From contig NZ_JAMSLS010000002.1 of assembly GCF_023806465.1 (NCBI RefSeq), forward strand, positions 248,001-312,000: a stretch of DNA of 64,000 nucleotides. Reading direction: 5' to 3'. This document shows positions 24,451-38,621 of the stretch, piece after piece. Within the stretch, counting starts at the first letter, position 1; the number at the start of each line of letters is the position of its first letter. A program made the translations under genes and the position numbers. The notes beneath the pieces are model-generated. The model worked only from the letters and a program-made list of their open reading frames with translations. It was not told the origin of the DNA and did not search any database. The stretch is from Thermomicrobium sp. CFH 73360 (GTDB lineage Bacteria > Chloroflexota > Chloroflexia > Thermomicrobiales > Thermomicrobiaceae).

Positions 24451-24486
24451 AATGCCGCACAGTCCTCGCCAAGTCGGTGCGGCATT
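24451..24486. repeat. 10-bp perfect inverted repeat upstream of the sulfur operon
   Basis: AATGCCGCAC (24451-24460) and GTGCGGCATT (24477-24486) are perfect reverse complements with a 16-base spacer; the left arm also forms a smaller TGTGCGG/CCGCACA repeat with sequence just before it. It lies about 150 bases upstream of the predicted operon promoter and could be a regulator site or a hairpin. Confidence 0.4.
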
Positions 24487-24634: not shown

Positions 24635-24663
24635 TTGACTGATGACCGGGTGCCTGCTATCAT
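24635..24663 (+). promoter_or_regulatory. predicted sigma70-type promoter of the sHdr operon
   Basis: TTGACT (24635-24640) and TATCAT (24658-24663) are separated by exactly 17 bases, the best promoter match I found in the window. Transcription would begin near 24670, leaving a leader of about 78 bases before tusA. The leader contains a small GGGTA-CTG-TACCC hairpin around 24704-24717. The rest of the 24109-24747 gap holds no supported gene. Confidence 0.6.
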
Positions 24664-24747
24664 GTGGATGATTCCTAATGCGTGTAGTGCTTCGCAATTC
24701 AGGGGTACTGTACCCGAGTAGGGTGCATTAGTAGAGGAGGCGACGGC

Positions 24748-24990
24748 ATGACGGAGGTTTTGCAGCCGGACCGCGTGCTCGATTGCAGCGGCTTGCTCTG
24801 CCCGCTGCCGGTGATCCGCACCTCCAAGGCGATCAAGGAACTCGGTATCGGGCAGGTACTGAAGGTGATTGCTACCGACCCAGGCGCACCAGCCGACATG
24901 GAGGCCTGGGCACGCCAGACTGGCAACGAGCTGATCGATGCCCACGAGGAAGACGGCAAGTACGTCTTTTTCTTCCGTCGCATGCGCTGA
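24748..24990 (+). CDS. tusA: sulfur carrier protein TusA
   Basis: Small cytoplasmic sulfurtransferase that carries persulfide sulfur. The family signature LDCSGLLCPLPVIRTSKAIK covers residues 11-30, with the active Cys18 in CPLP. 80 residues, usual length, with the beta-rich C-terminus NELIDAHEEDGKYVFFFRR. AGGAGG lies upstream of the ATG. It opens the sulfur operon, where TusA is expected to pass sulfane sulfur to DsrE-type proteins and then towards the sHdr-LbpA system. Confidence 0.94.
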   Translation: MTEVLQPDRVLDCSGLLCPLPVIRTSKAIKELGIGQVLKVIATDPGAPADMEAWARQTGNELIDAHEEDGKYVFFFRRMR

Positions 24991-25008
24991 GTTCGAGAGG
25001 AGGAGGCC

Positions 25009-25530
25009 ATGGCCCGACGCGATCCTGACGCACCGAAGCGACTGGCCATCATTGCCAGCAAAGGGACGCTGGACTTTGCCTATCCTCCCTTCATCCTCGG
25101 CTCGACAGCCGCGGCCATGGGCTGGGAGGTTGGCATCTTCTTTACCTTCTATGGGCTACCACTCTTGTTGCGGAACTACGATCCCAAGGTCAGCCCGCTC
25201 GGTAATCCAGCCATGCCGCTCAAAATGCCCTTCGGGCCCCCAGGTTTCCGCCAGATCTCCTGGCCGATCCCTGCCATCGTGGAGGCACTCCCGGGCTTCT
25301 CGCTCCTGGCAACCTCACTCATGCAGGAAACATTCAAACAAAAGGGCGTCCCCTCACTCTTGGAGCTCCGCCAGATGTGTATTGACGCTGGTGTCAATCT
25401 GATCGCCTGCCAGATGACCATGGACGTCTTCGGCTTCAAGAAGGAGGACTTCATTCCGGAATGCACCGTTGGCGGGGCCGCGACCTTCCTCGAGTTTGCA
25501 GGCGACGCTGATGTCTCGCTGTTCGTCTGA
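25009..25530 (+). CDS. DsrE3-like sulfurtransferase (DsrE/DsrF/DrsH family)
   Basis: A 173-residue DsrE-superfamily protein of the kind found beside tusA in sulfur oxidisers. It starts RLAIIASKGTLDFAYPPFIL, has the long inserted middle segment with MPLKMPFGPPGF near 69-80, and three cysteines at about 124, 134 and 152; the pair in LIACQMTMDVFG and FIPECTVGG matches the likely sulfur-binding positions. It begins 18 bases after tusA with GGAGGAGG upstream. Role as persulfide acceptor/donor with TusA is inferred from family and context. Confidence 0.85.
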   Translation: MARRDPDAPKRLAIIASKGTLDFAYPPFILGSTAAAMGWEVGIFFTFYGLPLLLRNYDPKVSPLGNPAMPLKMPFGPPGFRQISWPIPAIVEALPGFSLLATSLMQETFKQKGVPSLLELRQMCIDAGVNLIACQMTMDVFGFKKEDFIPECTVGGAATFLEFAGDADVSLFV

Positions 25531-25547
25531 CGGGGGGATGGACGATC

Positions 25548-25931
25548 GTGAGCGAGGAGACCAAGAAGATCCTGTATGTCCAAACCCACGGGGTAGACAC
25601 CCCGGAGCGAAGTGCGACGCCCTTCTTCTTGGCCGCTGCCGCAGCGGCCATGGATATCGAAGCAGCCATTTACTTCACGATGAATGGCCCGACGTTGCTC
25701 AAGAAGGGCGTCCCTGAGACGCTCGTCGTCCCCAAAGCCGGAGGGGGCGGCGCGAAACTCAAACACTTCATCGATCAGGCACTGGAGCTGGGGGTCAAGC
25801 TCTACGTCTGTCAGCCGTCACTGGACCTCCACGGCCTCACGATGGATGACCTGATCGAGGGAGTACAGATGATCGGCGGAGCGGCCTTCAACCTGATGGC
25901 ATTGGAGGCCGATGCAGTGGTGGCGTTCTAA
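25548..25931 (+). CDS. second DsrE-family protein
   Basis: Short DsrE-like protein of 127 residues with a GTG start 17 bases after the first dsrE-like gene. It has ILYVQTHGVDTPERSATPFFLAAAAAAM at the N-terminus, IYFTMNGPTLLKKGVPE near 41-57 and a single cysteine at about 88 in KLYVCQPSLDLHGL, which aligns with the conserved sulfur-binding Cys. Likely partners the preceding protein in sulfur relay, either as a hetero-oligomer or a separate acceptor. The precise DsrE subgroup needs a phylogeny. Confidence 0.82.
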   Translation: MSEETKKILYVQTHGVDTPERSATPFFLAAAAAAMDIEAAIYFTMNGPTLLKKGVPETLVVPKAGGGGAKLKHFIDQALELGVKLYVCQPSLDLHGLTMDDLIEGVQMIGGAAFNLMALEADAVVAF

Positions 25932-25933
25932 CC

Positions 25934-26419
25934 ATGACGCGCGAGGCACCGTCCTTTGCCATCGTCCAGAGCTGCATCCTCCCGCTCGACCTCCATTACC
26001 GGATCGAGCAGCATCAATGGGTGTGCGTCGAAGCTGACGGGACGGTGACACTCGGTTACACCGACGTCGCTCAGACGGTCGCTGGCCGCATTCTCCACGT
26101 CACCTTCCGTCCAACCGGGCGCCACTACGCACACGACGCCACGGTCGCAGTGGTCGAGAGTGCAAAGTGGCTTGGTGCCTACCGTACACCAGTCAGTGGC
26201 CTTCTTCTGGAGACGAACGCTGCCCTACTCGAGGATCCCGAACTCGTCAACCGGAGCCCCTATCGCCGAGGCTGGCTGGTGCGGCTCCAGCCGGATGATC
26301 TCGAACATGATCTTGCCGACCTGCTCACGGGGCACGAGGCGATCGGGGCCTATGACGCTTTCATGTCACGCCGCGGGTTGGACGATTGCGTGCACTGCGC
26401 GGGGTACGAGCTGCCATGA
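25934..26419 (+). CDS. lbpA: lipoate-binding protein LbpA (GcvH-like), copy 1
   Basis: GcvH-fold protein expected to carry lipoate on Lys78 (segment VVESAKWLGAY) and to bind sulfur intermediates for the sHdr complex. Residues about 20-140 form the lipoyl domain: HQWVCVEADGTVTLGYTDVAQ, then the lipoyl hairpin, then YRRGWLVRLQPDD. It differs from ordinary GcvH in an N-terminal SCILPLDLHY (Cys14) and a C-terminal CVHC at residues 152-155. Genomic setting between dsrE and hdrC1 supports the LbpA assignment over a glycine-cleavage role. 161 residues, longer than GcvH (about 130). It overlaps the next gene by four bases. Confidence 0.88.
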   Translation: MTREAPSFAIVQSCILPLDLHYRIEQHQWVCVEADGTVTLGYTDVAQTVAGRILHVTFRPTGRHYAHDATVAVVESAKWLGAYRTPVSGLLLETNAALLEDPELVNRSPYRRGWLVRLQPDDLEHDLADLLTGHEAIGAYDAFMSRRGLDDCVHCAGYELP

Positions 26420-26685
26420 CACGCCTCCGTCTTTTCACCCACCCGATCTGTCACGGCTGCACTGAAGCACTGGCTTTGGTGGAACAGCTCATCCGGGAGG
26501 AGCCGGAGACGGAGGTCGAGATGGTCAGCCTGGCAACACCGCAGGGACGTGCTCTCGCCCAGGCAGCTGGTGTTGTCATCGTCCCCACCATCGTCGTAGA
26601 CAGCGAGCGATTCGTCGGTGTGCCAAGTTGGGAAGAGCTGCGCGCACTCGTCCAGCGCGCGAGCCGCATCGGAGGTGCCGTATGA
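26416..26685 (+). CDS. thioredoxin-like protein with CxxC
   Basis: An 89-residue thioredoxin-fold protein: LRLFTHPICHGCTEALAL places a CHGC redox pair at residues 12-15, and VVIVPTIVVD near 55-64 contains the cis-Pro of the fold. I start at the ATG at 26416, which overlaps the lbpA stop; an in-frame start 30 bases upstream is unlikely. The stop overlaps hdrC1. It could reduce or exchange disulfides on LbpA or on the DsrE/TusA relay; that role is inferred from position. Confidence 0.82.
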   Translation: MTRLRLFTHPICHGCTEALALVEQLIREEPETEVEMVSLATPQGRALAQAAGVVIVPTIVVDSERFVGVPSWEELRALVQRASRIGGAV

Positions 26686-27386
26686 GCGTCGCGACGTGGA
26701 GCCCCACAAAAGCGAGCCAACGCTATGCGGATGTCGCGGAGGAGACCAAACGTCAGCTCTTCGAGGAAGTGAAGAGTGACCCGCGTTATCCGGATTTCCT
26801 CTATGGCTGTTACGAGTGTGGAATCTGCGTCTCCGCTTGTCCCTCGGCTCGCTTCTACGACTTCAGCCCACGCGTCATCGCTCAGGCGTTGGCGCGTGAG
26901 GACGTCGACCGTTTCTACGAGATCGTGATGGAGGATATCTGGAATTGCGCCCAGTGCTTCTCGTGCGTCCGCTGCCCCCGCGGCAATAACCCTGGCGGGC
27001 TCGTCACGTTGATGCGTGAGGTCGCCGTCCGGCATGGCCTGGAGCAAGCCCAGCAGGCACTCCAGGGTTACTCGCGCGTCATTTACAAGATCATGCTGAA
27101 GGGTAACCAGGTCTCCCCCGATATGTTGCAACCGGACTTCTTCCCCGACTGGGGTCCGTGGGTGCGCGAGTTCAGCCGCAACATGACCGCTTGGCGCAAA
27201 GCAATCCCGGTCGACACGCTACGCAACGTCACCGACGCGGCGTGGCGCACCGACGACAAGACCCTGCGCGAGCTCTACACCATCTGGTTTGAGACCGGAA
27301 ACATGGAGGTGATCCGCGAGGTCGACGAAGGGCTCTACGAGCTCCTGGTCGAGATCATGGAAGAAGAATTGGAGGCAGCATCATGA
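26682..27386 (+). CDS. hdrC1: sulfur-oxidising heterodisulfide reductase-like subunit HdrC1
   Basis: Iron-sulfur subunit of the sHdr complex. The 234-residue protein has a first [4Fe-4S] motif at Cys43/46/49/53 (CYECGICVSACP) and a second at Cys89/92/95/98 (CAQCFSCVRCP). The second has CX2CX2CX2CP spacing, one residue shorter than the usual CX2CX2CX3CP. A helical C-terminus follows. Start by ATGA overlap with the thioredoxin-like gene; stop overlaps hdrB1. It should relay electrons between HdrB1 and HdrA. Confidence 0.9.
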   Translation: MSVATWSPTKASQRYADVAEETKRQLFEEVKSDPRYPDFLYGCYECGICVSACPSARFYDFSPRVIAQALAREDVDRFYEIVMEDIWNCAQCFSCVRCPRGNNPGGLVTLMREVAVRHGLEQAQQALQGYSRVIYKIMLKGNQVSPDMLQPDFFPDWGPWVREFSRNMTAWRKAIPVDTLRNVTDAAWRTDDKTLRELYTIWFETGNMEVIREVDEGLYELLVEIMEEELEAAS

Positions 27387-28600
27387 GCGAACACGTGATC
27401 CCCTTGGCAGAGCTGCGTGAACGCAAGGCACAGGTCGTCCGGCCGAACCCCGAAGAGGCTCCACGCCCAGACCTCCGTGAGGAACTTTTTGAACTCGAGG
27501 CGCGTGGGGAGCTCATTGTCCAGCGTGTGCCGGAACCCTACGTCGAAGTGACCACCAAGTTCGGTCGCACAAAGAAGGTGCCAATCGATCATTTGTGGCA
27601 TCATAAGTCATGCGGTCAATGTGGTCACATTCCGGGCTACACGACCTCAATTCTCTGGCTCAATCGACAGTTTGGGATCGACTATCTCGATCCAACCGAT
27701 CAAACCTCCTGCACTGGCTGGAACTACTATGCCTCGGCAACCTCGAATGCAGTGGCCCAGCTCCTGGTGATGTGTCGCAACTTCGCGGCCGCCTATGAGA
27801 CGGGCTACTACCCACTCATCCACTGCGGCACGAGCTATGGTCACTACAAGGAACTCCGCGAGCAACTGGTCCACCACAAGGACCTCCGTGACCAAGTCCG
27901 ACGCATCCTGGACAAGCTCGGGAAGCCGCTCGTGGTGCCAGAAGAGATTGTGCACTACAGCGAGTGGGTGCACGTCATGCGCCACCGCATCGCTGAGCGG
28001 CAGGTCATCGACATGCGCAATATCACCGCCTGTGTGCATCCGGCTTGTCACTACTACAAGATCGTCGCGGAGGATGCAATTTACGATCCGGACATTTACG
28101 GTGGCCAACGTACTGCGACCGTCACTGCGCTCCTGCAGGCCCTGGGCATTACCGTTGCCGACTACTCGACCTGGTTTGACTGCTGCGGTTTCGGCTTCCG
28201 GCACATCCTGGTGCAACGTGATTTCACTCGCTCCTTTGCCGTCCTCCGCAAGATCGAGGTCATGAAGGATGAAGCCAATCCCGACATGACGGTCACGCAC
28301 GACACCGGCTGCGTCACCACCCTCGACAAGAGCCAGTTTGCCGCCAAGGCCCACCAGCGCCGCGTCGGCGTCCCGGTGCTCGCCGATTCGCAGGTTGGCG
28401 CACTGGCCATGGGCGCGCATCCCTTCCGTGTCCTCCAGCTGCACTGGCACTCCACTGACTGGCGCCCGCTGCTGGAGAAGCTTGGCATCGACTGGCAGCG
28501 CCACTGGGCCGAGTTTGAGGAGGACCTGGCAGCAATCGAGCGGGGCGAGAAACCCGGCCTGACCTGGGAAGATGCTGAACAGCCAATTCTGACACGGTAA
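27383..28600 (+). CDS. hdrB1: sulfur-oxidising heterodisulfide reductase-like subunit HdrB1
   Basis: Putative catalytic subunit with CCG-type cysteine-rich domains, which in HdrB bind noncubane [4Fe-4S] clusters. At 405 residues it is longer than methanogen HdrB, mainly through a 70-residue N-terminal extension. Cysteines group as C77/C80, C110 and C148 in the first half, and C217/C222 (CVHPACHYYK), C267-C268 (FDCCGFGF) and C310 (HDTGCVTTLDK) in the second. The last CXXC of the canonical motif is reduced to one Cys. Overlaps hdrC1 by four bases; hdrA follows after 10 bases. Confidence 0.9.
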   Translation: MSEHVIPLAELRERKAQVVRPNPEEAPRPDLREELFELEARGELIVQRVPEPYVEVTTKFGRTKKVPIDHLWHHKSCGQCGHIPGYTTSILWLNRQFGIDYLDPTDQTSCTGWNYYASATSNAVAQLLVMCRNFAAAYETGYYPLIHCGTSYGHYKELREQLVHHKDLRDQVRRILDKLGKPLVVPEEIVHYSEWVHVMRHRIAERQVIDMRNITACVHPACHYYKIVAEDAIYDPDIYGGQRTATVTALLQALGITVADYSTWFDCCGFGFRHILVQRDFTRSFAVLRKIEVMKDEANPDMTVTHDTGCVTTLDKSQFAAKAHQRRVGVPVLADSQVGALAMGAHPFRVLQLHWHSTDWRPLLEKLGIDWQRHWAEFEEDLAAIERGEKPGLTWEDAEQPILTR

Positions 28601-28610
28601 GGGGGATGCT

Positions 28611-29681
28611 GTGCGTGAGAACGGACTGGCAGTGTTAGTGATCGGTGGTGGCCCTGGCGGGCTAGAAGCCGCCCGCACCGTCGCTGCACTTGGTACCCCA
28701 GTGGTGCTGGTGGAGCGACGACACCGGCTGGGAGGAACGCCGGATGCTGAGCATTACGCAAAGCTCACCCACCACTTCCGTGATGCCGAGGAAGCCCTTG
28801 GTGAACTCATCGCTGCTGTAACCTCCCAACCGCTGGTGGAAATACTCACGCGGAGCGAAGTGACCGCGTGTGAGGGAGAAGTCGGCAACTTCCGCGTCAC
28901 CATTCGCACTCCGGAGGGGATGCAGGAACGGACGGTTGGCGCCATCATCGTCGCCACCGGCTTCCAGCACTTCGATCCGGGGCGGGAGACCCAGTTGTAT
29001 AACTACTATTCTTTCCCTGACGTGGTCACGCTGAGTGACATGGAGGCGATGCTCAAGGCCCACCAGGTCGTTCGCCCTTCCAATGGGCAACCACCGGAGC
29101 GAGTGGCCTTTATCCAGTGCGTCGGGTCACGGGATCGCCAGATTGGCAACGAATTCTGCTCCAAGGTCTGTTGTGGTATCGCCTCGAAGCAGGCGATCGA
29201 GATCAAACAGCAGCTACCCAACGCCCGCGTGTTCATCTTCTACATCGACATGCGGATGTACGGCTACTGGGAAAACGAGCTCTACTGGCCGGCCCAGGAG
29301 CAATACAAAGTGAACTATGTCAAAGGGATCGTCAGCGAGATTCTGCCCAAAGGTGATCGTCTCCTCATTCGGGGTGAGGACACGACCATGGGACGACCGA
29401 TGGAGATCACGGTCGACTTGGTTGTGCTCTCGGTCGGCATGGAACCCAGTAGTGGCACACGCCAGATGGCTCGTCTCCTGGGGATCGCGCAGAACAAGTA
29501 CGGCTACATCGAAGCAGGCGGCCCAAGCGGGCTTGATCCGGTCGCCACTTCGCGCCCCGGAATTTTCGTCGTCGGCGCAGCAGCACGGCCAGCTGATCTC
29601 GACGATACCTTCGCGACAGCGGGACTCGCAGCTGCACGGGCAGTCGCTGCACTGCGCCAGGCACCCGTTGCTGCGGACTGA
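28611..29681 (+). CDS. hdrA: sulfur-oxidising heterodisulfide reductase-like subunit HdrA
   Basis: FAD-binding electron hub of the sHdr complex. LAVLVIGGGPGGLEAARTVAAL at residues 6-27 is the dinucleotide-binding motif; AIIVATGFQHFDP near 111 is the second FAD contact. The HdrA-type cluster motif is present: Cys170 in IQCVGSRDRQ plus Cys183, Cys187 and Cys188 in EFCSKVCC. It ends with the FAD motif RPGIFVVGAAARPADLDDTFATA. At 356 residues it lacks the ferredoxin extensions of methanogen HdrA, as in other sHdrA proteins. GTG start with GGGGG upstream. Confidence 0.92.
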   Translation: MRENGLAVLVIGGGPGGLEAARTVAALGTPVVLVERRHRLGGTPDAEHYAKLTHHFRDAEEALGELIAAVTSQPLVEILTRSEVTACEGEVGNFRVTIRTPEGMQERTVGAIIVATGFQHFDPGRETQLYNYYSFPDVVTLSDMEAMLKAHQVVRPSNGQPPERVAFIQCVGSRDRQIGNEFCSKVCCGIASKQAIEIKQQLPNARVFIFYIDMRMYGYWENELYWPAQEQYKVNYVKGIVSEILPKGDRLLIRGEDTTMGRPMEITVDLVVLSVGMEPSSGTRQMARLLGIAQNKYGYIEAGGPSGLDPVATSRPGIFVVGAAARPADLDDTFATAGLAAARAVAALRQAPVAAD

Positions 29682-29709
29682 GCAGTCTTTCGCCGAGAGG
29701 AGGCAGATC

Positions 29710-29961
29710 ATGGCGCAGCGGACAGAACCAACCGTGAATCCCTTCATCCGGTTCATGGCAAGTGGCGCTGGCCGCATCCTGCGCATCGTTCTTGGTGTGA
29801 TCTTGATCCTTCTTGGGGTCTTTGTGCTTCCCGCTCCCTGGAGCTGGATCATGGAGGCGATTGGACTGATCCCGATCGCTGCTGGTGTCTTCGACTTCTG
29901 CCTCTTGGGTCCACTATTCGGGGTTGGCTTCTGGGGACGAGACATCCGCGGTCGGACGTAA
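29710..29961 (+). CDS. small DUF2892-like membrane protein
   Basis: An 83-residue protein resembling the DUF2892/YgaP-type two-helix membrane domain: NPFIRFMASGAGRILRIVLGVILILLGVFVL then MEAIGLIPIAAGVFDFCLLGPLFG, with the single Cys in the second helix at the usual place. GAGGAGG precedes the ATG. In YgaP the domain accompanies a rhodanese and binds thiocyanate or sulfur ligands, so a role at the membrane in sulfur handling is plausible but unproven. It is 28 bases after hdrA and 10 bases before the 'hyp' gene. Confidence 0.8.
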   Translation: MAQRTEPTVNPFIRFMASGAGRILRIVLGVILILLGVFVLPAPWSWIMEAIGLIPIAAGVFDFCLLGPLFGVGFWGRDIRGRT

Positions 29962-29971
29962 GGAGACGACG

Positions 29972-30769
29972 ATGAGCCAGCCCTTGCGGCCAAGCCACCT
30001 CATCAAGCCGAAGACTGGTCCTGATGATCCGGAGCTCCAAGAAACGCTCCAGGAAGGGCTGCAGCAAGTCGCCCCGGATGACATCGTGCAGCTGACTGCG
30101 GAGCTGCTGGCACGACGCCAGCGGCTGCTTCCAACGGTCTTTGCCCTGGCCAGCGGCTCTCCCTGCGAGCCGGAGACTCTTCACGTCCTGGCCAACTCAC
30201 TGACCCCAACCGCCAAGCAGGCCCAGGCAGCAGCCGGTCTGCTGCAGCACCTCCACAGCTGCGAGGCGCTTCCAAAACTCCTCACCGAGGAAGCACCGGT
30301 TGAGGAGCGCTTGCGGTACTTCCTCACCGCCTGTGGAACGGCCGACCGGCGTCTGGCCTTAGAAACGGCAACTGGGCTACTGCACCTCGCGACACCGCGC
30401 CGCTATTGGCTCTGGACGCGCTGGTTATGGGACGTCGAGCACCGTACCGGCATCCTGCCCTTGCTGGCCTCCACAACGCACGCCCTCCAAGGAGAAGACG
30501 TCGGCATCCAATATCGCCACCTCGGCGCGCTCGTCGCGATGGGAGCGGAACTCGGCCGGAACAGTGGCCTTCTCTCGGCCGAGCTGGCCGATGATCCGGA
30601 ACGCGGCCCCTTTGCGACGGACGCTTTCCTGGCGATCGCCTACAGCGTCTACCTTTACGGCATCACGAACTGGCGGCTGAGTCGCGAGTTCAACCGGCTC
30701 CTTCCCTCACTGCCGGATCTGGCCCGGCGACTCTTGGGCTTACCACGCCCTGCTCGAGCGCAGGTGTGA
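29972..30769 (+). CDS. sHdr-associated conserved hypothetical protein ('hyp')
   Basis: A 265-residue protein without cysteine motifs, at the place where sHdr clusters carry a conserved gene called hyp. The sequence is helical, resembling an armadillo/HEAT-like repeat arrangement (for example TAELLARRQRLLPTVFALASG, AAGLLQHLHSCEALPKLL and TGLLHLATPRRYWLWTRWLWD). I start at the ATG at 29972, preceded by AAGGAG, not the longer frame running through the upstream gene. It may be a structural or assembly component of the complex; I know no biochemical function. Confidence 0.75.
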   Translation: MSQPLRPSHLIKPKTGPDDPELQETLQEGLQQVAPDDIVQLTAELLARRQRLLPTVFALASGSPCEPETLHVLANSLTPTAKQAQAAAGLLQHLHSCEALPKLLTEEAPVEERLRYFLTACGTADRRLALETATGLLHLATPRRYWLWTRWLWDVEHRTGILPLLASTTHALQGEDVGIQYRHLGALVAMGAELGRNSGLLSAELADDPERGPFATDAFLAIAYSVYLYGITNWRLSREFNRLLPSLPDLARRLLGLPRPARAQV

Positions 30770-30782
30770 GAGGAGTCACCAG

Positions 30783-32084
30783 ATGGATCCGAGTCTCAAG
30801 AAAGTTGCGGAAGTCTGGGAACGGGAAACAGCGATCGTCGAAGGGATGGACATCTCTGGTCCCTGGAACCGTATGTTCGGCCAGCGGGTGATCTGGGACT
30901 ATTCACCCGATCTCATTGAAGAGATCGCCCAGCTGCCAGGAGCCGAGTCATTCGCCTGGTGCTACCAGTGTGGCAAGTGCGTGCCTGTTTGCCCTGTCGA
31001 CGTGGTTGGCGACTATGGCCCGCGCAAGCTCTATCGGCGCGCCCAGACGGGCATCAACTTGCTCGATTCTCCCGACCTCTGGCTGTGCACGACCTGTGCC
31101 AACTGTCTACGGGTCTGCCCGAAGCTGGTCGACATGGTGCAGATCATGCCTGCAGCGCGGGAGCACGCCATGCTGACCGGGCGAGCGATTCCGGCCGAGC
31201 TGCAGGAGGCACTCGAGAACACCGCCATATACGGAAACCCACTCGGCCAACCGGCCCGCAAGCGGGAAGCGTGGGTGAAGGATGCCGGCGTGCCGGTGCC
31301 GATCCTCCACCAGATCCAGCGTCCGGTTGAGTGGCTCTGGTGGGTCGAGTGCTATCCCTCCTACCACCCACGGGGGATCGATGCCTCCATTGCCCTGGCC
31401 CGTATCTTCAACGCGCTCGGGCTCGATTTCGCCATCCTGGGTCGGGAGGAGAAGTGCGCCGGAGACTCCCAGCGGCTGGCGGGCGAGCGCGGGCTCTTCG
31501 AGATGCTGGCAGAGGAGAATATCCGAACCCTTGCGAAGTACGAGTTCCGGCACATCGTGGTCACTGACCCCCATGCGCTCAACGCCTTCCGCAAGCACTA
31601 TCCAAAGCTTGGCGGGCAGTACGACGTCTGGCACTATACGACGCTGCTGGCACGCGAGCTCCCCAAACTGCAGCCACTCCTGACCAAATCCTTACCCTAC
31701 CGGGTGACCTTCCACGACCCCTGCTATCTTGGTCGCCACAACGGCGAGTACGACGCGCCGCGACAACTCATTCAAGCCTTGCCGGGGGTGGAGTTTGTCG
31801 AGATGCTCCGCTGCCGCGAGAACTCTTACTGCTGTGGTGGCGGTGGGGGCGGGATGTGGTTGGACAGCTTCGCCGCCGGCCACCAGCGTCGCCGTCTCTC
31901 TGAGGAGCGCGTCCTCGAGGCGGTCAGTACCGGTGCAGACACCCTGGTTGTTTGCTGTCCATATGAAGTGTCGCGCTTTGAAGATGCCGCCAAGTCGACT
32001 GGTGTCGAGGGACGCCTGCGCGTGCGCGATATCGCGGAACTGCTGGCAGAAGCAATGGGGTTGATCGGGGAGGATGCAGCATGA
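30783..32084 (+). CDS. hdrC2B2: fused HdrC2-HdrB2 iron-sulfur protein
   Basis: One 433-residue protein combining a ferredoxin-like HdrC domain and an HdrB-type CCG domain. Two [4Fe-4S] motifs lie at Cys60/63/66/70 (CYQCGKCVPVCP) and Cys102/105/108/112 (CTTCANCLRVCP). The CCG part has Cys225 (REEKCAGDSQR), Cys313 (FHDPCYLGRHN) and Cys344 and Cys350-351 before a long glycine run (YCCGGGGGGMWLD). Similar in layout to GlpC/HdrD. In other sHdr clusters HdrC2 and HdrB2 can be separate; here they are one chain. Overlaps etfB by four bases. Gene symbol is descriptive. Confidence 0.88.
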   Translation: MDPSLKKVAEVWERETAIVEGMDISGPWNRMFGQRVIWDYSPDLIEEIAQLPGAESFAWCYQCGKCVPVCPVDVVGDYGPRKLYRRAQTGINLLDSPDLWLCTTCANCLRVCPKLVDMVQIMPAAREHAMLTGRAIPAELQEALENTAIYGNPLGQPARKREAWVKDAGVPVPILHQIQRPVEWLWWVECYPSYHPRGIDASIALARIFNALGLDFAILGREEKCAGDSQRLAGERGLFEMLAEENIRTLAKYEFRHIVVTDPHALNAFRKHYPKLGGQYDVWHYTTLLARELPKLQPLLTKSLPYRVTFHDPCYLGRHNGEYDAPRQLIQALPGVEFVEMLRCRENSYCCGGGGGGMWLDSFAAGHQRRRLSEERVLEAVSTGADTLVVCCPYEVSRFEDAAKSTGVEGRLRVRDIAELLAEAMGLIGEDAA

Positions 32085-32848
32085 CCATTGTCGTGGTGAT
32101 GGAGCAGGTACCGGACGTCGTCGAGGAGCTGGCGATTGCTCCCTCTGGTACCGACCTCGACCGGGATGCGGTCAGCTACGTCCTGAACGAGTACGACGAC
32201 CACGCTTTAGAGGAAGCGCTGCTTCTCGCCGAAGCAAGCGGCGACGAAGTCGTTGCAGTTGGTATCGATACTACCGGTGAGCTTGATCAGACACTCTACA
32301 CCGCGCTCGCCAAGGGAGCTCGGCGGGCTATCAAGCTGACCGGCGACTTTGAGGGGACGTGGCTAAGTACGCGGGCTGCCGCGCGGCTGCTCGTGCCGGT
32401 CATCCAAGAACTCGGGCCACGCCTGGTGCTCACGGGCGTGCAGGCTCCGGACGATCTCGACGGCCAGCTCGCGCCGACGTTGGCCGCCTTGCTCGGCTGG
32501 CCGCACGCCAGTGTCGTCATCGGAAGTGAGCTCGTGGACGGTGTAGTGCAGGTACGTAAGGAACTGTGGGGTGGCATCACGATGACGCTCGAACTGGAGC
32601 TCCCCGCAGTGCTCGGCGTCCAGGCCGCGCGCCAGGCACCACGATACGTCCCCATCAGCCGCGTGCGGCAGGTGATGCGTGAGGCCAGCATCGAGACCCG
32701 CGAGGTCGAAGCACCGGATGGGCTGGTCCCGGCGGTCACCACGCTCCGCGTGCCGGAGCAGGCGGGTCGAGCCGAGATATTGACGGGCAGTCCAGCTGAG
32801 ATCGCCGACCGGATCATCGAACTCCTCCGGGCACGCGGCCTACTCTGA
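32081..32848 (+). CDS. etfB: electron transfer flavoprotein beta subunit
   Basis: AMP/FAD-supporting subunit of ETF. MTIVVVMEQVPDVVEEL opens the adenine-nucleotide-hydrolase-like fold; LVLTGVQAPDDLDGQLAPTLAALLGWPHAS near 112-142 is the signature region, followed by VRKELWGGITMTLELELPAVLGVQ near 158. 255 residues, usual length. Translationally coupled to hdrC2B2 and 15 bases before etfA. In this setting EtfAB should take electrons from the sHdr complex and pass them to the membrane protein encoded downstream. Whether it bifurcates electrons cannot be settled by eye. Confidence 0.93.
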   Translation: MTIVVVMEQVPDVVEELAIAPSGTDLDRDAVSYVLNEYDDHALEEALLLAEASGDEVVAVGIDTTGELDQTLYTALAKGARRAIKLTGDFEGTWLSTRAAARLLVPVIQELGPRLVLTGVQAPDDLDGQLAPTLAALLGWPHASVVIGSELVDGVVQVRKELWGGITMTLELELPAVLGVQAARQAPRYVPISRVRQVMREASIETREVEAPDGLVPAVTTLRVPEQAGRAEILTGSPAEIADRIIELLRARGLL

Positions 32849-32863
32849 GGGAGGGAGTCGACA

Positions 32864-33829
32864 ATGACTCAGCGAATCGCAGTCTTGGTCGAACACCTGG
32901 AAGGCCAGCCGACGGATGTCACGTTCGAGTTACTTGGCCTGGCACGGCGCATCGCCAATACCGACGGTGCGAGCGTCCAGGCATATCTTTTTGGTGAGCG
33001 CGTTGGACACTTGGCCGAAAGTCTACCAGCTGACAGCGTGACGGTGGTCGAGCATTCGGCGCTCCACCATCTTGCACCCGAGCCGACCGCACGTGTCCTC
33101 GCTGCGCTACTGCCGGCCGATCTGCCGCGCCTTCTGCTCGTCCCCAACACCTCTCTTGGGATGGACGTAGCCGCCTGGGTTGCCGCAGCCCTCGAGTGGC
33201 CGCTTGTCGCCTACTGCCAAGCACTCGAGCACCGCGGGAGTCGGCTGGTTGCAACCGCCCAGCTCTTCGGCGGCAAGATCCTGGCTGACGTCACGCTCGA
33301 TGAACGACCCACGGTAATCGCAGCACTCGCTGGCGCCTTCGCGGCCGACGCAGTCAACCCTGGCGCCCCGGGGAAGATCGAGCGGCGTGATGCACCTGCC
33401 GAACTCGCCGCGCTCCGCACGCGCTCCGTTGTCCTGGAGCGACCGGAGGCAGCAGACGTGGACATCACCCGGGCCGAGAAGATCGTCGCGGTGGGTCGCG
33501 GCATTGAAAGCAAGGACAATCTGGAGCTCGCCGAGCAAGTGGCACAGGCACTGGGCGCAGTGTTGGCTGCATCGCGTCCACTGGTTGATGCCGGCTGGCT
33601 CCCGCGCTCGCGGCAAGTTGGGAAGTCAGGACTCAAGGTTAAGCCGAAGCTCTACTTTGCGCTCGGTATCAGTGGCGCTCCCGAGCATTTGGAGGGAATG
33701 AAGGACGCCGAGCTGATCATCGCGGTCAACAAGGACCCCAAGGCGCCGATCTTCGGCGTGGCCGACTACGGAGCGGTTGCGGATCTCTTCGAAGTGAGTG
33801 AGGCACTTCTGGAGCGACTGGAGGGCTGA
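32864..33829 (+). CDS. etfA: electron transfer flavoprotein alpha subunit
   Basis: FAD-binding subunit of ETF, 321 residues. The C-terminal FAD domain is clear: AEKIVAVGRGIESKDNLELAEQVA near 206, LAASRPLVDAGWLPRSRQVG near 233, LYFALGISGAPEHLEGM near 265 and IIAVNKDPKAPIFGVADYG near 285. GGGAGGGAG precedes the ATG. Ends four bases before the GTG of the membrane oxidoreductase gene, so etfB, etfA and that gene form a compact electron-transfer cassette inside the sulfur operon. Confidence 0.94.
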   Translation: MTQRIAVLVEHLEGQPTDVTFELLGLARRIANTDGASVQAYLFGERVGHLAESLPADSVTVVEHSALHHLAPEPTARVLAALLPADLPRLLLVPNTSLGMDVAAWVAAALEWPLVAYCQALEHRGSRLVATAQLFGGKILADVTLDERPTVIAALAGAFAADAVNPGAPGKIERRDAPAELAALRTRSVVLERPEAADVDITRAEKIVAVGRGIESKDNLELAEQVAQALGAVLAASRPLVDAGWLPRSRQVGKSGLKVKPKLYFALGISGAPEHLEGMKDAELIIAVNKDPKAPIFGVADYGAVADLFEVSEALLERLEG

Positions 33830-33833
33830 CGCC

Positions 33834-35876
33834 GTGCTGACGACACCAGAACGGATCGCTTTCGTTCTCCTTGCCCTCGCCTCGCTCCTGCTCACCGCGC
33901 ACGGTGTGTCTCGCATCGTGCGAGCAATTGCCCGCGGTCAGGGCCGTCCGAACTGGAGGCTCTTCTTCCACCGTGTCATCCCGGTGAGCCTGGACATCCT
34001 GCTCCAACGGCCGATCTTCCGGACACGCCCGTTGGTCTCGCTGTTGCACGCAGGAGTCTTCTTTGCCTTCGTCTTCTATGGGCTGGTCAATATCCTTGAC
34101 CTTCTCGAGGGCTTTACCGGCTTTAGTACGCTCCACCGGAGTGGTGTCGCTGCGCTCTACAACCTGATCGCCGACCTGCTGAGTGTGGCAGCACTCGCCG
34201 GGATGCTGGGGCTGCTAATCCGACGCTTTGGGCTACGGCCGTTCCGCTTCAACCAGCGCGTGTTGCTCCTGCCAAGTGTCCGCTTCGGTATCTCACGTGA
34301 CTCAGCGATCGTCGGCGGCTTCATCCTCCTCCACGTCGGCTCACGCTGGATCGGCCAGGCTGTACGGGTGGCAGAAAGCGGGCAGCCCGATTGGAGCCAG
34401 CCGACAGCGAGTTTGGTCGCAACACTCTTCCATGGCTGGAGCGAGGCAGCGCTTACGACGGCAAGTCATGTGACCTGGTGGTTGGCACTCGGCCTGATTC
34501 TGGCCTTCCTCCCCTATTTCCCGTACTCCAAGCATATTCACCTCTTTATGGCGCCACTCAACCTGATCCTCCGAGAAGCGCGACCACTCGGTCAGCTTGA
34601 ACCGCCGCCCAGTAGTGACGGAACCATCGGTGCTGAGCGCCTCGAGCAGCTCCGCTGGTATCAGCTGCTCGATGCCTACGCCTGCATCATGTGCAATCGC
34701 TGCCAAGATGTTTGTCCGGCCCATGGCACCGGACGAGCGCTGAGTCCGGCGGCGCTCGAGATCAACAAGCGGTACTACCTCAACCGCAACCTCGCGACCT
34801 TCGCCGGAGGAGCCACTTCTCCCCCACTGTTAGAGATTGCAACGTCGAAGGAAGCTGTCTGGTCTTGTACCACGTGTGCTGCCTGCGTGCGCATCTGCCC
34901 AGTAGGCAACCGCCCGATGCTCGACTTGATCGACATCCGCCGCGCACTGGTGAACCGCGGCGACCCGCTTGACCCCAATCTTCAAAGCGCCCTGGAAAGC
35001 CTTGCCCGGTACGGAAACTCCTTTGGCAAACCTGCCCGCCAGCGTGCCCGTTGGGCGAAGGAACTTCCCTTTTCGATTAAGGACGCGCGGAAGGAGCCGG
35101 TCGAATATCTCTGGTTCGTTGGTGACTTCGCTTCCTTCGACCCACGGATGCAGGAGAACACGAAGACAGTCGCCCAGCTCTTCCAGGCGGCTGGGCTCGA
35201 CTTCGGGATCCTCTACGAGGACGAGCGGAACGCTGGCAATGACGTGCGACGGGTCGGCGAGGAAGGGTTGTTCGAGATGCTGGTGGAACAGAACCTCGCC
35301 GCCCTCAAGAAAGCGCAGTTCCGCGCCATCGTCACGACCGATCCCCATACCTATAATGCGCTCAAGAACGAGTATCCGGCTTATGGCTTCCAGGTCCCGG
35401 TCTACCACTACACCGAAGTGCTGGCCGAACTGCTCGAACGAGGAATACTGCGCGTCCAGCAACCGCTACGTGCCGCGGTGACCTATCATGACCCCTGCTA
35501 TCTTGGCCGTTACAACCGGATCACCGCAGCACCGCGCCGCATCATCCGGGCACTCGGCTTGGAGCTCCGTGAGATGCCGAGACACGGTGAAAACACCTAC
35601 TGCTGCGGGGCCGGCGGCGGCCAAATCTGGATGGACAGCGGCGGGCAGGAACGACCAAGTGAGCAGCGGATCCGTGAGGCAGTCGCGCTGGGGGACGACC
35701 TTCGCTATTTCGTCGTGTCCTGCCCTAAGGACATGGCGATGTACAGCGATGCGGTGAAGACGACCGGCTATGAGGGTCGCCTCACCGTGATCGATGTGGC
35801 ACGACTTGTCGCTGTCGCCATTGGGATCGACGGCGTGGAACGTGAGGCTGCACCGGTCGAGTCGGAGGCCCGATGA
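33834..35876 (+). CDS. membrane NarI/HdrD-like oxidoreductase, candidate ETF:quinone oxidoreductase (FadF/EMO type)
   Basis: A 680-residue protein fusing a NarI-like membrane domain with a soluble HdrD-like FeS part. About five or six hydrophobic segments occupy residues 8-240, with histidines suitable for heme b. Two [4Fe-4S] motifs follow (CIMCNRCQDVCP near 285; CTTCAACVRICP near 340), then a CCG domain with YHDPCYLGRYN near 553 and YCCGAGGGQIWMD near 592. Where HdrC2B2 has EKCAGD, this protein has ERNAGND, losing that Cys. Such proteins next to etfBA are thought to pass ETF electrons to menaquinone. GTG start at 33834. Confidence 0.87.
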   Translation: MLTTPERIAFVLLALASLLLTAHGVSRIVRAIARGQGRPNWRLFFHRVIPVSLDILLQRPIFRTRPLVSLLHAGVFFAFVFYGLVNILDLLEGFTGFSTLHRSGVAALYNLIADLLSVAALAGMLGLLIRRFGLRPFRFNQRVLLLPSVRFGISRDSAIVGGFILLHVGSRWIGQAVRVAESGQPDWSQPTASLVATLFHGWSEAALTTASHVTWWLALGLILAFLPYFPYSKHIHLFMAPLNLILREARPLGQLEPPPSSDGTIGAERLEQLRWYQLLDAYACIMCNRCQDVCPAHGTGRALSPAALEINKRYYLNRNLATFAGGATSPPLLEIATSKEAVWSCTTCAACVRICPVGNRPMLDLIDIRRALVNRGDPLDPNLQSALESLARYGNSFGKPARQRARWAKELPFSIKDARKEPVEYLWFVGDFASFDPRMQENTKTVAQLFQAAGLDFGILYEDERNAGNDVRRVGEEGLFEMLVEQNLAALKKAQFRAIVTTDPHTYNALKNEYPAYGFQVPVYHYTEVLAELLERGILRVQQPLRAAVTYHDPCYLGRYNRITAAPRRIIRALGLELREMPRHGENTYCCGAGGGQIWMDSGGQERPSEQRIREAVALGDDLRYFVVSCPKDMAMYSDAVKTTGYEGRLTVIDVARLVAVAIGIDGVEREAAPVESEAR

Positions 35877-36346
35877 GCGAGCAAGCGAGTGACGTGATCG
35901 CCCAAGAATTGGCACTCCGCTTCCGGGTCCTCGCCCGGGCGCTGGATCGATTCGACCGGCTCGAGGGGGAACGCGAGTTCGTCGGCTGGCTCGCTCAACT
36001 GGCAGGCGATCAGCGGACACTAGAGGCGCTCAGTACTACCCTTACCCTGCAGGCAGTCCAGGCGGCAGCGGAAGAGGGAAACTACCGGCTGCTCCGGCTT
36101 CTTGGCACCGAAGAGGCGGTCTCGCTCGCGAGGCTCTGCGACGCCAGCGGTCTCGACCGTGCGTCACTGTACCTTCGGCTCGGGCGGCTGGCTCACGCGG
36201 GACTCGTCATCCTGGAACTCGACGGCGAGTCGGTGCGGTCGACGCCGCTTGGGCGAACCCTCTCGCACTGGCTGGGCACCGTGATCACTGAAACGCGCGA
36301 GCGCATCGCCGAGTGGCTAGAACTGGTCGGGAGCACGACGTCATGA
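35873..36346 (+). CDS. winged-helix-like protein in the sulfur operon
   Basis: A 157-residue protein whose middle (about residues 60-125: NYRLLRLLGTEEAVSLARLCD, then LDRASLYLRLGRLAHAGLVI, then VRSTPLGRTL) has helix-turn-helix and beta-wing character like ArsR/MarR regulators. The N-terminal helix and C-terminal helix could dimerise. No cysteine pair is present. Start overlaps the membrane oxidoreductase stop, and its stop overlaps the zinc-finger gene. It may regulate the operon, but lying inside rather than at the edge is unusual for an operon repressor, so an assembly role is also possible. Confidence 0.65.
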   Translation: MSEQASDVIAQELALRFRVLARALDRFDRLEGEREFVGWLAQLAGDQRTLEALSTTLTLQAVQAAAEEGNYRLLRLLGTEEAVSLARLCDASGLDRASLYLRLGRLAHAGLVILELDGESVRSTPLGRTLSHWLGTVITETRERIAEWLELVGSTTS

Positions 36347-36636
36347 GCTTCACCTGTCCCTATTGCCGCCTACGCGCCGACCGGGGAACGATGCATGCGC
36401 ACCTGGCGGGAGTGCACGGCGACCAGATCACCTTCAGCCTGCATGAGCGCTCCGGATATACCCTCGCCACGGTCACCTGCCCGCTCTGCTGTGCGAGCTG
36501 GGAGCAACCGATCCGCAAGGCGCGACGAGATCCGCGCTTTCTCGAGGAATACGCCTATGAAATCCGGCTCGTTCTCTTTGATCTGCTCTTGCACCACCTG
36601 CGCGGTGAGCATGGAGAAGGAGGAGGGGAACAATGA
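36343..36636 (+). CDS. small protein with two Cys2His2-type metal sites
   Basis: A 97-residue protein with two matching half-sites: C5/C8 paired with H20/H25 (CPYC...HAHLAGVH) and C46/C49 paired with H85/H90 (CPLC...HHLRGEH). Both end in the pattern H-L-x-G-x-H, suggesting an internal duplication that binds two zinc ions. I do not recognise a named family. Overlaps its neighbours on both sides by four bases, so it is produced together with LbpA2. Possible roles are nucleic acid binding with the winged-helix protein or handling of LbpA; both are guesses. Confidence 0.65.
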   Translation: MSFTCPYCRLRADRGTMHAHLAGVHGDQITFSLHERSGYTLATVTCPLCCASWEQPIRKARRDPRFLEEYAYEIRLVLFDLLLHHLRGEHGEGGGEQ

Positions 36637-37070
36637 GCGACGTTCGTGGCTGCAGGGTTCCGGAAGATCTCTACTACTGGCCCGAAAAGCATGTCTGGGC
36701 CCGTCCGGAGCCGGACGGAACAGTCACGATTGGGATCACTGACGCAGCACAACACTTGGCGAAGACGATCATTAGTGTTACCCCCCGCGGAGTGGGGCGC
36801 AAGGTGCAACGTGGTAAGAGCGCCGGGACGCTCGAGAGCGGCAAATGGGTCGGGCCGGTGACCTCGCCAGTGTCAGGTGAGATCGTGGCAGTTAACGAGG
36901 ACGCGATCGCCAACCCAAAGCTCTTGAACGAGGATCCCTACGGAGCCGGCTGGTTCGCCCGTATCCGGCCGGACGACTGGGAGGGAGAGGCAAAACTCCT
37001 CGTCACCGGCACGCAGGCGGTCGAGGCCTACCGCCAAGTGCTCGAGCAAGAAGGGATCAGCTGCGCGTGA
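36633..37070 (+). CDS. lbpA: lipoate-binding protein LbpA (GcvH-like), copy 2
   Basis: A 145-residue GcvH-fold protein with predicted lipoyl-lysine Lys71 in TLESGKWVGPVTSPVSGEI. N-terminal GCRVPEDLYYWPEKHVWAR resembles LbpA of sulfur oxidisers, with Cys7 conserved relative to the other two copies. The end, LEQEGISCA, has a single Cys144 rather than CxxC. Of the three copies this is the closest to ordinary GcvH in its central region. It overlaps both neighbours by four bases. Confidence 0.87.
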   Translation: MSDVRGCRVPEDLYYWPEKHVWARPEPDGTVTIGITDAAQHLAKTIISVTPRGVGRKVQRGKSAGTLESGKWVGPVTSPVSGEIVAVNEDAIANPKLLNEDPYGAGWFARIRPDDWEGEAKLLVTGTQAVEAYRQVLEQEGISCA

Positions 37071-37531
37071 TGCAGGACGAGCGTGTCCGCGTCTATCGGG
37101 GGTGCATTCTCCCGCTTGACCTCCTCTACGACGTCGAGCACGACGTCTGGGTACGGCTGGAGGGAGAACAAGCCAGGCTCGGCATGACCGACCCGGCGCA
37201 GACCCGAGCAGGGAAACTGGTGGCAATCCGCTTCAAACGCCCGGGGACAGTCGTCGAGCGGGGGCGCGCCCTGGCAACCATTGAGAGCGGCAAGTGGGTC
37301 GGCCCCTTCCCTGCCCCTTTCCGCTGCGAGATTCTTGAGACGAACCAGTCCGGCTTTGAGCGCGATATTCTCTTAGCCAACCGCGACCCCTACGGGGAGG
37401 GTTGGCTTCTCCTCGTCCGGCCGTTGGCCCCTGAGCAGCTGGACGACCTTCTGCCGGGCGAAGAGGCGTTCCAGCGTTACCGCCAGCGAATTGACGAATT
37501 GGGACTCACCTGCTTCCGCTGCGCAGAATGA
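37067..37531 (+). CDS. lbpA: lipoate-binding protein LbpA (GcvH-like), copy 3
   Basis: A 154-residue GcvH-fold protein with predicted lipoyl-lysine Lys76 in TIESGKWVGPFPAPFRCEI. It shares with copy 1 the N-terminal CILPLDL-Y segment (Cys13) and a C-terminal CxxC (Cys149 and Cys152 in CFRCAE), so copies 1 and 3 look like closest paralogues although they lie 11 kb apart in the operon. Normal GcvH proteins have neither feature. ATG start overlapping the copy 2 stop; the ligase gene follows after 16 bases. Confidence 0.86.
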   Translation: MMQDERVRVYRGCILPLDLLYDVEHDVWVRLEGEQARLGMTDPAQTRAGKLVAIRFKRPGTVVERGRALATIESGKWVGPFPAPFRCEILETNQSGFERDILLANRDPYGEGWLLLVRPLAPEQLDDLLPGEEAFQRYRQRIDELGLTCFRCAE

Positions 37532-37547
37532 GTGAAAGGAGACACTC

Positions 37548-38621
37548 ATGCGCATTCGCGTCGTTGACCTCGGCCTCGTCAGCCCCGTACGCTCCCAAAC
37601 GGTGTATCATGCAGTCGGCTACGCGTTCCGGTCGGATGCGCCACCCACCATCCTCCTTGTGTCAACGACCGACCCCTACGTCTCGATCGGCTATCACCAG
37701 GACGCCGAGCGCGAGGTCGACCTTGAGTACTGTCGGCAGGCTGGCCTGCCGGTGATTCGGCGTGAGGTCGGTGGCGGAGCAGTGTATCTCGACCACAACC
37801 AGGTCTTTACCCAGTGGATTTTCCCCCGGGAACTTGTCCCAGTACGGGTCGAAGACCGCTTCGCCTGGTACGTGCGCCCGCTCGTCGAGACCTACCGTCA
37901 GTGGGGCATTGAAGCGACGTGGCGACCGATCAATGATATCCATGTCCGCGGTCGCAAGATCGGGGGAACGGGTGCAGCCAGTATTGGTGACGCAGAAATC
38001 CTTGTGGGTAGTCTCATGCTCGACTTTGATACCAAGCAAATGGCACGAGTGCTCAAAGTTGCCTCCGAGAAGATGCGCGATAAAGTGTTCCAGAGCCTCG
38101 AGGAATACATGACCACAATGCGGCGCGAGCTTGGTACCATGCCGGATCGCGATCAAGTGGTCCACACCTATCTGGAACAGTGTTCAGCTGCACTTGGTGC
38201 GGAACTCGAGTTTGGTGAGCTGACGCCAGAAGAGGAGGCCGTTGCCGCTGAACTCGATGCACGGTTTGCCTCCGAGGAATGGCTCTACCAGAAGGGTGGC
38301 CTGCGGGAGTCCGGGATCAAGATTCATACCGACGTGCGCCTCCATGAGGCAGCGCTCAAGGTGCCGGGCGGACTGATCCGCGTTATCGTCCGCACCCATG
38401 GCGGACGGATCGACGATGTCAGTCTCAGTGGCGATTTCACCCTGTTACCTGCACTTGGCCTCGCCGCGATCGAGCAGGCGGTACGCGGCCTGAGCACGCG
38501 GCGCGAGGAACTCGCCGTCCGCATCCGCGAGGTCTACCGCGCGCTGGGCCTGCAGTCACCCGGTGTCACCGCCGAGGACTTCGCACAGGCGATCGCTCAG
38601 GCAGCCCACTCTGCGATCTAA
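37548..38621 (+). CDS. lipoate-protein ligase of the sulfur locus
   Basis: LplA-type ligase expected to attach lipoate to the LbpA proteins. The lipoate-AMP site is visible: RREVGGGAVYLDHNQVFTQW at 71-90 and GRKIGGTGAAS near 135 with the likely catalytic Lys137. The catalytic domain occupies about residues 1-215 and a C-terminal accessory domain residues 255-345, including WLYQKGGLRESGIKIH. 357 residues, matching ligases that carry both domains in one chain. AAAGGAGA precedes the ATG. It ends the operon. No lipS1/lipS2 genes are beside it; lipA and lipB occur 23 kb to the left. Confidence 0.88.
   Translation: MRIRVVDLGLVSPVRSQTVYHAVGYAFRSDAPPTILLVSTTDPYVSIGYHQDAEREVDLEYCRQAGLPVIRREVGGGAVYLDHNQVFTQWIFPRELVPVRVEDRFAWYVRPLVETYRQWGIEATWRPINDIHVRGRKIGGTGAASIGDAEILVGSLMLDFDTKQMARVLKVASEKMRDKVFQSLEEYMTTMRRELGTMPDRDQVVHTYLEQCSAALGAELEFGELTPEEEAVAAELDARFASEEWLYQKGGLRESGIKIHTDVRLHEAALKVPGGLIRVIVRTHGGRIDDVSLSGDFTLLPALGLAAIEQAVRGLSTRREELAVRIREVYRALGLQSPGVTAEDFAQAIAQAAHSAI

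Follow-up and report, generated by a model that had tools for sequence, protein, structure and literature searches.

The closest described relatives of the locus reported here are the type II sHdr-EtfAB systems, defined by shdrC1-B1-A-H-B3 plus etfAB in one syntenic cluster (PMC11582611) and represented in T. roseum by trd_0160-0142, a cluster of 19 genes that is up by a mean of ~45-fold in persistence/starvation (PMC6776052). In these two reports the extra small genes are named just as hypothetical proteins, and the two protein families described below, together with their restriction to sHdr, are absent there (the search covered few subscription journals). The regulators known around such clusters include ArsR-type sulfane-sulfur repressors: the sensors sHdrR, SoxR, BigR, YgaV, and HlyU have two conserved cysteines in common, which are Cys50/Cys116 in H. 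denitrificans sHdrR, and many of the ArsR-type regulators associated with sHdr have neither cysteine of the pair and may act otherwise (PMC12423496). In Thermus, sulfur oxidation is regulated by the CsoR-family protein TTHA1953, whose measured binding motif is TACNNTACNNNNGTANNGTA (PMC10318464).

The window, a 64,000-nucleotide stretch of a Thermomicrobium-like Chloroflexota genome (G000:C12:248001-312000), contains one such cluster as a single run of genes (Table 1). The gene order is tusA, dsrE2, dsrE1, lbpA1, thioredoxin-like, hdrC1, hdrB1, hdrA, small membrane protein, hyp265, hdrC2B3, etfB, etfA, emo, wHTH, zn, lbpA2, lbpA3, and lplA. As in the type II definition, shdrC1-B1-A-H-B3 and etfAB lie together in one syntenic cluster, and both the size of 19 genes and the named parts are the same as in the T. 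roseum cluster. The associated lbpA genes are present as three GcvH-family genes, with PF01597 matches for lbpA1 and lbpA2 and an assignment of lbpA3 via homology. The gene order around wHTH and zn, the two small genes of interest, is maintained in seven genomes of two genera. Another small operon protein, hyp265 (29972-30769, 265 aa), is conserved in sHdr clusters and co-diverges with wHTH; Pfam and NCBIfam gave no match for it.

Table 1. Features of the sHdr-Etf locus, in window coordinates
Feature	Position	Strand	Remarks
Sigma70-like promoter TTGACT-N17-TATCAT	24635..24663	+	Conserved, 5 genomes of 2 genera
Operator candidate TACTGTACCCGAGTAGGGTG	24706..24725	+	11/12 to TTHA1953 (CsoR-family) motif
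Type II sHdr-Etf (sHdr-EtfAB-EMO) operon	24748..38621	+	19 genes; comparison with PMC6776052
emo, membrane EtfAB:menaquinone oxidoreductase-like protein, 692 aa, neighbour upstream of wHTH	33798..35876	+	
wHTH protein (157 aa) with an ArsR-like winged helix and long helices at both termini	35873..36346	+	
wHTH predicted recognition-helix segment, residues 94-112	36152..36208	+	Net charge +2 here, family median 0
zn protein, 97 aa, two CxxC...HxxxxH sites	36343..36636	+	AlphaFold2 pLDDT 91.4; alignment
zn first predicted zinc site: C5 36355, C8 36364, H20 36400, H25 36415	36355..36417	+	
zn second predicted zinc site: C46 36478, C49 36487, H85 36595, H90 36610	36478..36612	+	
lbpA2, lipoate-binding protein, GcvH family, neighbour downstream of zn	36633..37070	+	
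lbpA3, lipoate-binding protein	37067..37531	+	
lplA, lipoate-protein ligase, final operon gene	37548..38621	+	

The original prediction placed two small genes within 35873-36636, and both are real, with products of 157 aa (35873-36346) and 97 aa (36343-36636). The 4-base overlaps that it described were also found, as ATGA at the emo/wHTH (35873-35876), wHTH/zn (36343-36346), and zn/lbpA2 (36633-36636) junctions. Both genes are under purifying selection, with dN/dS values well below 1 against three genus relatives (0.19-0.27 for wHTH and 0.07-0.30 for zn). Among relatives, the gap at the wHTH-zn junction ranges from -34 to +85 nt, with the genes overlapping or touching in many but not all cases, so that coupling is common and not obligatory. 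In a comparison of 36343-36633 with L010 13178-13468, the synonymous divergence (pS) of zn from G006 was 0.10, far below that of wHTH (0.58) and lbpA2 (0.26), suggesting a recent gene exchange inside the operon. In G603 (L222 8476-9144), the order of zn and wHTH is reversed, and a receiver-like 223-aa ORF separates emo from the pair.

The two half-sites of zn described in the original prediction are indeed present, as C5-x2-C8...H20-L-x3-H25 and C46-x2-C49...H85-L-x3-H90, and the conservation of their residues holds across 38 relatives: none of them departs from C5, H20, H25, C46, C49, or H85, conservation of C8 is 97%, and that of H90 is 89%, with a residue other than histidine in four of the 38. 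H18 is invariant as well, as are R14, F66, I74, V77, D80, and L83. H84 of the "HHL" stretch is histidine only near Thermomicrobium and elsewhere usually tyrosine. The AlphaFold2 model is of high confidence (pLDDT 91.4, pTM 0.82) and places a strand pair and a helix around each CxxC, with a strand-strand-helix arrangement at site 1. A Foldseek search against solved structures gave no match at E <= 0.001 (best 0.2), the PDB sequence search gave no useful match, and no Pfam or NCBIfam family reached its cut-off. The nearest family is zf-Di19 (PF05605), which 37 of the 38 family members match weakly and which the window protein matches at 18.6 bits, below the curated cut-off of 27.5. The zn protein has the CxxC...HxxxxH ligand pattern in common with zf-Di19 and classical C2H2 fingers, but differs from them in its two sites, the second of which has a 35-residue span between the cysteine and histidine pairs, as well as in the sub-threshold score and the missing PDB fold match. 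The median pI of the family is 6.0, and such neutral to acidic proteins do not suggest nucleic-acid binding.

The distribution of zn follows that of sHdr. In a survey of 400 Chloroflexota genomes with zn and sHdrB1 profiles, in which most sampled genomes were MAGs or drafts, zn was found in 24 genomes, sHdrB1 in 24, and both in 23 (Fisher p 4e-35). The genome with zn only (G124) carries hyp265-hdrC2B3-etfBA-emo-zn-lbpA2-lbpA3-lplA on a contig that begins inside the cluster. In the genome with sHdr only (G288), hdrB1 is split across contigs and zn is absent anywhere in the genome. The position of zn is between emo (or emo-wHTH) and lbpA2 in 24/24 Chloroflexota loci, and every located copy lies within an sHdr cluster. 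This also applies to the three zn-bearing genomes sampled outside Chloroflexota, all with sHdr clusters: two of 43 from the phylum to which G452 belongs (record name Armatimonadota) and one of 99 from that of G454 (record name Thermoanaerobaculia, Acidobacteriota). Two weak matches, in G003 (E 0.003) and G022 (E 0.009), were rejected as homologues on the basis of neighbourhood and sequence. Plasmid records gave no zn match; they contained three Acidithiobacillus sHdrB1-like matches (54% identity), and the one neighbourhood examined showed no comparable cluster.

The wHTH gene shows the same restriction. Across the 400 genomes its profile gave ten strong matches (E <= 1e-30), each of them inside an sHdr cluster, followed by a gap and then by generic wHTH proteins at 1e-9. 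In L066, L070, and G609, reached via Neomarinimicrobiota, wHTH lies between hdrC2B3 and etfB of the sHdr operon. Among 80 EMO loci, 34 were in sHdr clusters, with zn nearby in 19 and wHTH nearby in 31 of these, and neither gene was nearby in any of the 46 loci outside sHdr, indicating a link with sHdr rather than with EMO alone. In one family, nine genomes carry zn and no detectable wHTH, and L046, L051, L054, and most Acidobacteriota clusters carry wHTH without zn. Since either gene may be absent, neither is universally required, and the two are separate accessories instead of an obligate pair. The tight functional tie to the operon that had been proposed from gene position is supported: no homologue was found apart from an sHdr-Etf cluster in the sampled genomes, and conservation extends to the Cys/His residues. 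The wHTH and zn proteins are probably helper parts dedicated to the sulfur-oxidising machinery, restricted to sHdr across the several phyla sampled.

Profile and fold searches match wHTH with ArsR/MarR/Lrp transcription factors; the best profile matches were HlyU (E 1.2e-4) and NmtR, and Foldseek pointed to MarR/ArsR, so that the protein is predicted to adopt the ArsR-like winged-helix fold. This fold and the encoding with shdr genes are shared with the sHdrR/SoxR/BigR/HlyU-type repressors, but wHTH differs from them in that it lacks a conserved cysteine pair, has an acidic HTH, and carries an extra conserved N-terminal helix motif. Indeed, no conserved cysteine column is present in the alignments (A2, A4), and cysteine-based sensing by wHTH was rejected for this reason. 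The R16...ALDRxDRLE motif and W39 are conserved. The median net charge of the HTH region is -4 and that of the recognition helix 0, and the wing is acidic like the HTH. For comparison, HTH regions of 0 to +4 and recognition helices of +2 to +4 are found in the products of five canonical ArsR genes that precede sister sHdr operons; these genes lie directly 5' of tusA in L050, L059, L061, L055, and L067, divergently in L055. The regulators of this type are encoded beside the operon, whereas wHTH is encoded inside it, and the sister operons with an upstream canonical basic ArsR gene also keep the internal wHTH gene. Taken together, the charge and cysteine data argue indirectly against a classical operator-binding role of wHTH. 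DNA binding would still be compatible with the acidic HTH because R96 (86%) and R102 (91%) are well conserved in the predicted recognition helix, which in the window protein itself carries a charge of +2.

The leader of the operon points to a different type of regulator. The promoter proposed in the original prediction (24635-24663) is real and conserved in five genomes. The accompanying inverted repeat at 24451-24486 exists, with 10-nt arms, but is not conserved in the aligned relatives and was therefore rejected as an operator. A 20-bp element downstream of the promoter is a conserved CsoR-type site: it agrees with the TTHA1953 motif at 11 of 12 specified positions in 5/5 genomes (L010 1515, L013 1048, L014 1818, and L015 2074 in the relatives), and the surrounding leader is variable. 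A related element with 10/12 matches precedes a gene for a two-cysteine CstR-like (CsoR-family) protein in all five genomes. When the sHdr element of the g3 genome G008 is read as its reverse complement, it has 18 bases (CTGTACCCCGGTAGAGTA) in common with the pre-cstR element of the window genome. The CstR-like protein of the window genome scores above the PF02583 cut-off and possesses C39 and C68, at the residue numbers of the two TTHA1953 cysteines, without histidine at the copper-site position; its best PDB match is 7mq3, a chain deposited as CsoR. The gene heads a cassette that also encodes an iron-sulfur/membrane protein resembling TtrB/PsrB and a molybdopterin oxidoreductase resembling PhsA (L257 5409-10172, L258 5981-10746, and L014 from 16070). 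This cassette adjoins the sHdr operon in three of the five genomes (G001, G008, and G016) and lies on another contig in G000, where the CstR-like gene is at C23:289441.

No genome-wide enrichment of the motif was observed at <= 2 mismatches (24 sites vs 28 for the reversed control), so that the case for a CsoR-type regulator is built on where the site lies, on its conservation, and on its being shared. One further site with a single mismatch (C12:386573), upstream of a permease-like gene, was taken as chance. G/C-tract palindromes that recall the operators of CsoR-family proteins, for example CCCCCCTAGGGGGG, were seen upstream of tusA in L042, L043, L049, L051, and L064. The known system TTHA1953/CstR (PMC10318464) is to be likened to the candidate regulator and not to the wHTH/zn pair, with the differences that the pre-cstR sites match at 10/12, that the gene lies on another contig in the window genome, and that control of sHdr by this regulator is presumed for the present lineage. 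The leader site fits a CsoR/CstR-type regulator, and the role of sulfur sensor more likely belongs to a gene other than wHTH.

Possible partners of the two proteins were sought with partial Mantel tests in which the divergence of core sHdr was controlled for. The zn protein co-diverged with LbpA3 (r 0.36, p 0.003), LbpA2 (0.30, p 0.005), and hyp265 (0.29, p 0.003), and wHTH with hyp265 (0.57), EtfB (0.56), and EtfA (0.48), all with p about 0.001 or less and with p < 0.001 for EtfB and EtfA. No link with EMO was found for zn (r -0.09) or wHTH (0.03), and zn showed no co-divergence with lplA (r 0.04). The error of partial Mantel tests is inflated under phylogenetic structure, and these results can only point to possible partners; the assignment of LbpA2/LbpA3 and EtfAB is weakly inferred.

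On balance, we consider it about evenly poised that wHTH and zn are dedicated protein-level accessories of type II sHdr-EtfAB-EMO and not the DNA-binding sulfur sensor of the operon. According to this proposal, zn would be a small cytoplasmic scaffold held by two Cys2His2 sites presumably occupied by zinc, and may dock or mature the lipoate-carrying LbpA2/LbpA3. The wHTH protein would retain the ArsR fold, having lost both the sensing cysteines and the basic DNA surface, and may serve as an adaptor that binds proteins in the vicinity of EtfAB. Transcription of sHdr would more likely be set by a trans-acting two-cysteine CstR-like repressor at 24706-24725. Whether zn is an undescribed type II sHdr component handling lipoyl-sulfur carriers and wHTH an ex-ArsR regulator turned sHdr-Etf subunit is a more tentative proposition, to which we give distinctly less than even weight.

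The original prediction had considered the two proteins as a sulfur-sensing pair or as LbpA-assembly factors. The former is not supported: wHTH has no conserved cysteine, its HTH and wing are acidic, canonical basic ArsR genes stand upstream in sister clusters, the leader element fits CsoR/CstR, and the pI of zn is 6.0. A broader regulatory pair, in which wHTH is an autoregulator binding the sHdr promoter and zn modulates wHTH or senses sulfur or zinc, would agree with the ArsR/MarR-like fold, the conserved arginines of the recognition helix, the adjacent and often translationally coupled genes, and the existence of many sHdr-associated ArsR-type regulators that may act without the two cysteines (PMC12423496). 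The same charge and cysteine data oppose it, however, as do the retention of wHTH in sister operons with an upstream canonical ArsR, the suitability of the conserved leader site for a CsoR/CstR regulator, the shifting place of wHTH within the operon, and the presence of zn without wHTH, and we regard it as rather unlikely.

The zn protein may have an LbpA-related role, given its weak co-divergence with LbpA2/LbpA3, but no such signal links it to lplA. In its specific form, zn would aid lipoylation or sulfur loading of LbpA2/LbpA3 with the downstream ligase. In each of the 24 Chloroflexota loci read, zn lies directly 5' of lbpA2, which is in line with this idea, whereas L046 and L051 carry lbpA2 and lbpA3 without zn, and in G603 the zn-wHTH pair follows emo with lbpA2/lbpA3 not adjoining; we judge it unlikely. 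The G603 arrangement, in which the pair stays near emo though the lbpA genes are elsewhere, would instead suit structural subunits of EMO or of the EtfAB electron-transfer arm, serving membrane docking. The pair adjoins emo in nearly all clusters, three clusters from the Neomarinimicrobiota lineage sampled have wHTH next to etfB, and wHTH co-diverges with EtfA/EtfB. Against it, 46 EMO loci are without either gene nearby and neither protein co-diverges with EMO; this explanation seems improbable. We prefer the dedicated accessory role described above.

The transfer of sulfur and electrons by sHdr, LbpA, and EtfAB is understood only in part, and there has been hardly any work on type II systems. 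The zn gene tracks Chloroflexota sHdr almost one to one and thereby offers a genetic and biochemical handle, as well as a metagenome marker. The CsoR-type site is a testable candidate switch for a cluster that is reported to rise about 45-fold in starving T. roseum (PMC6776052).
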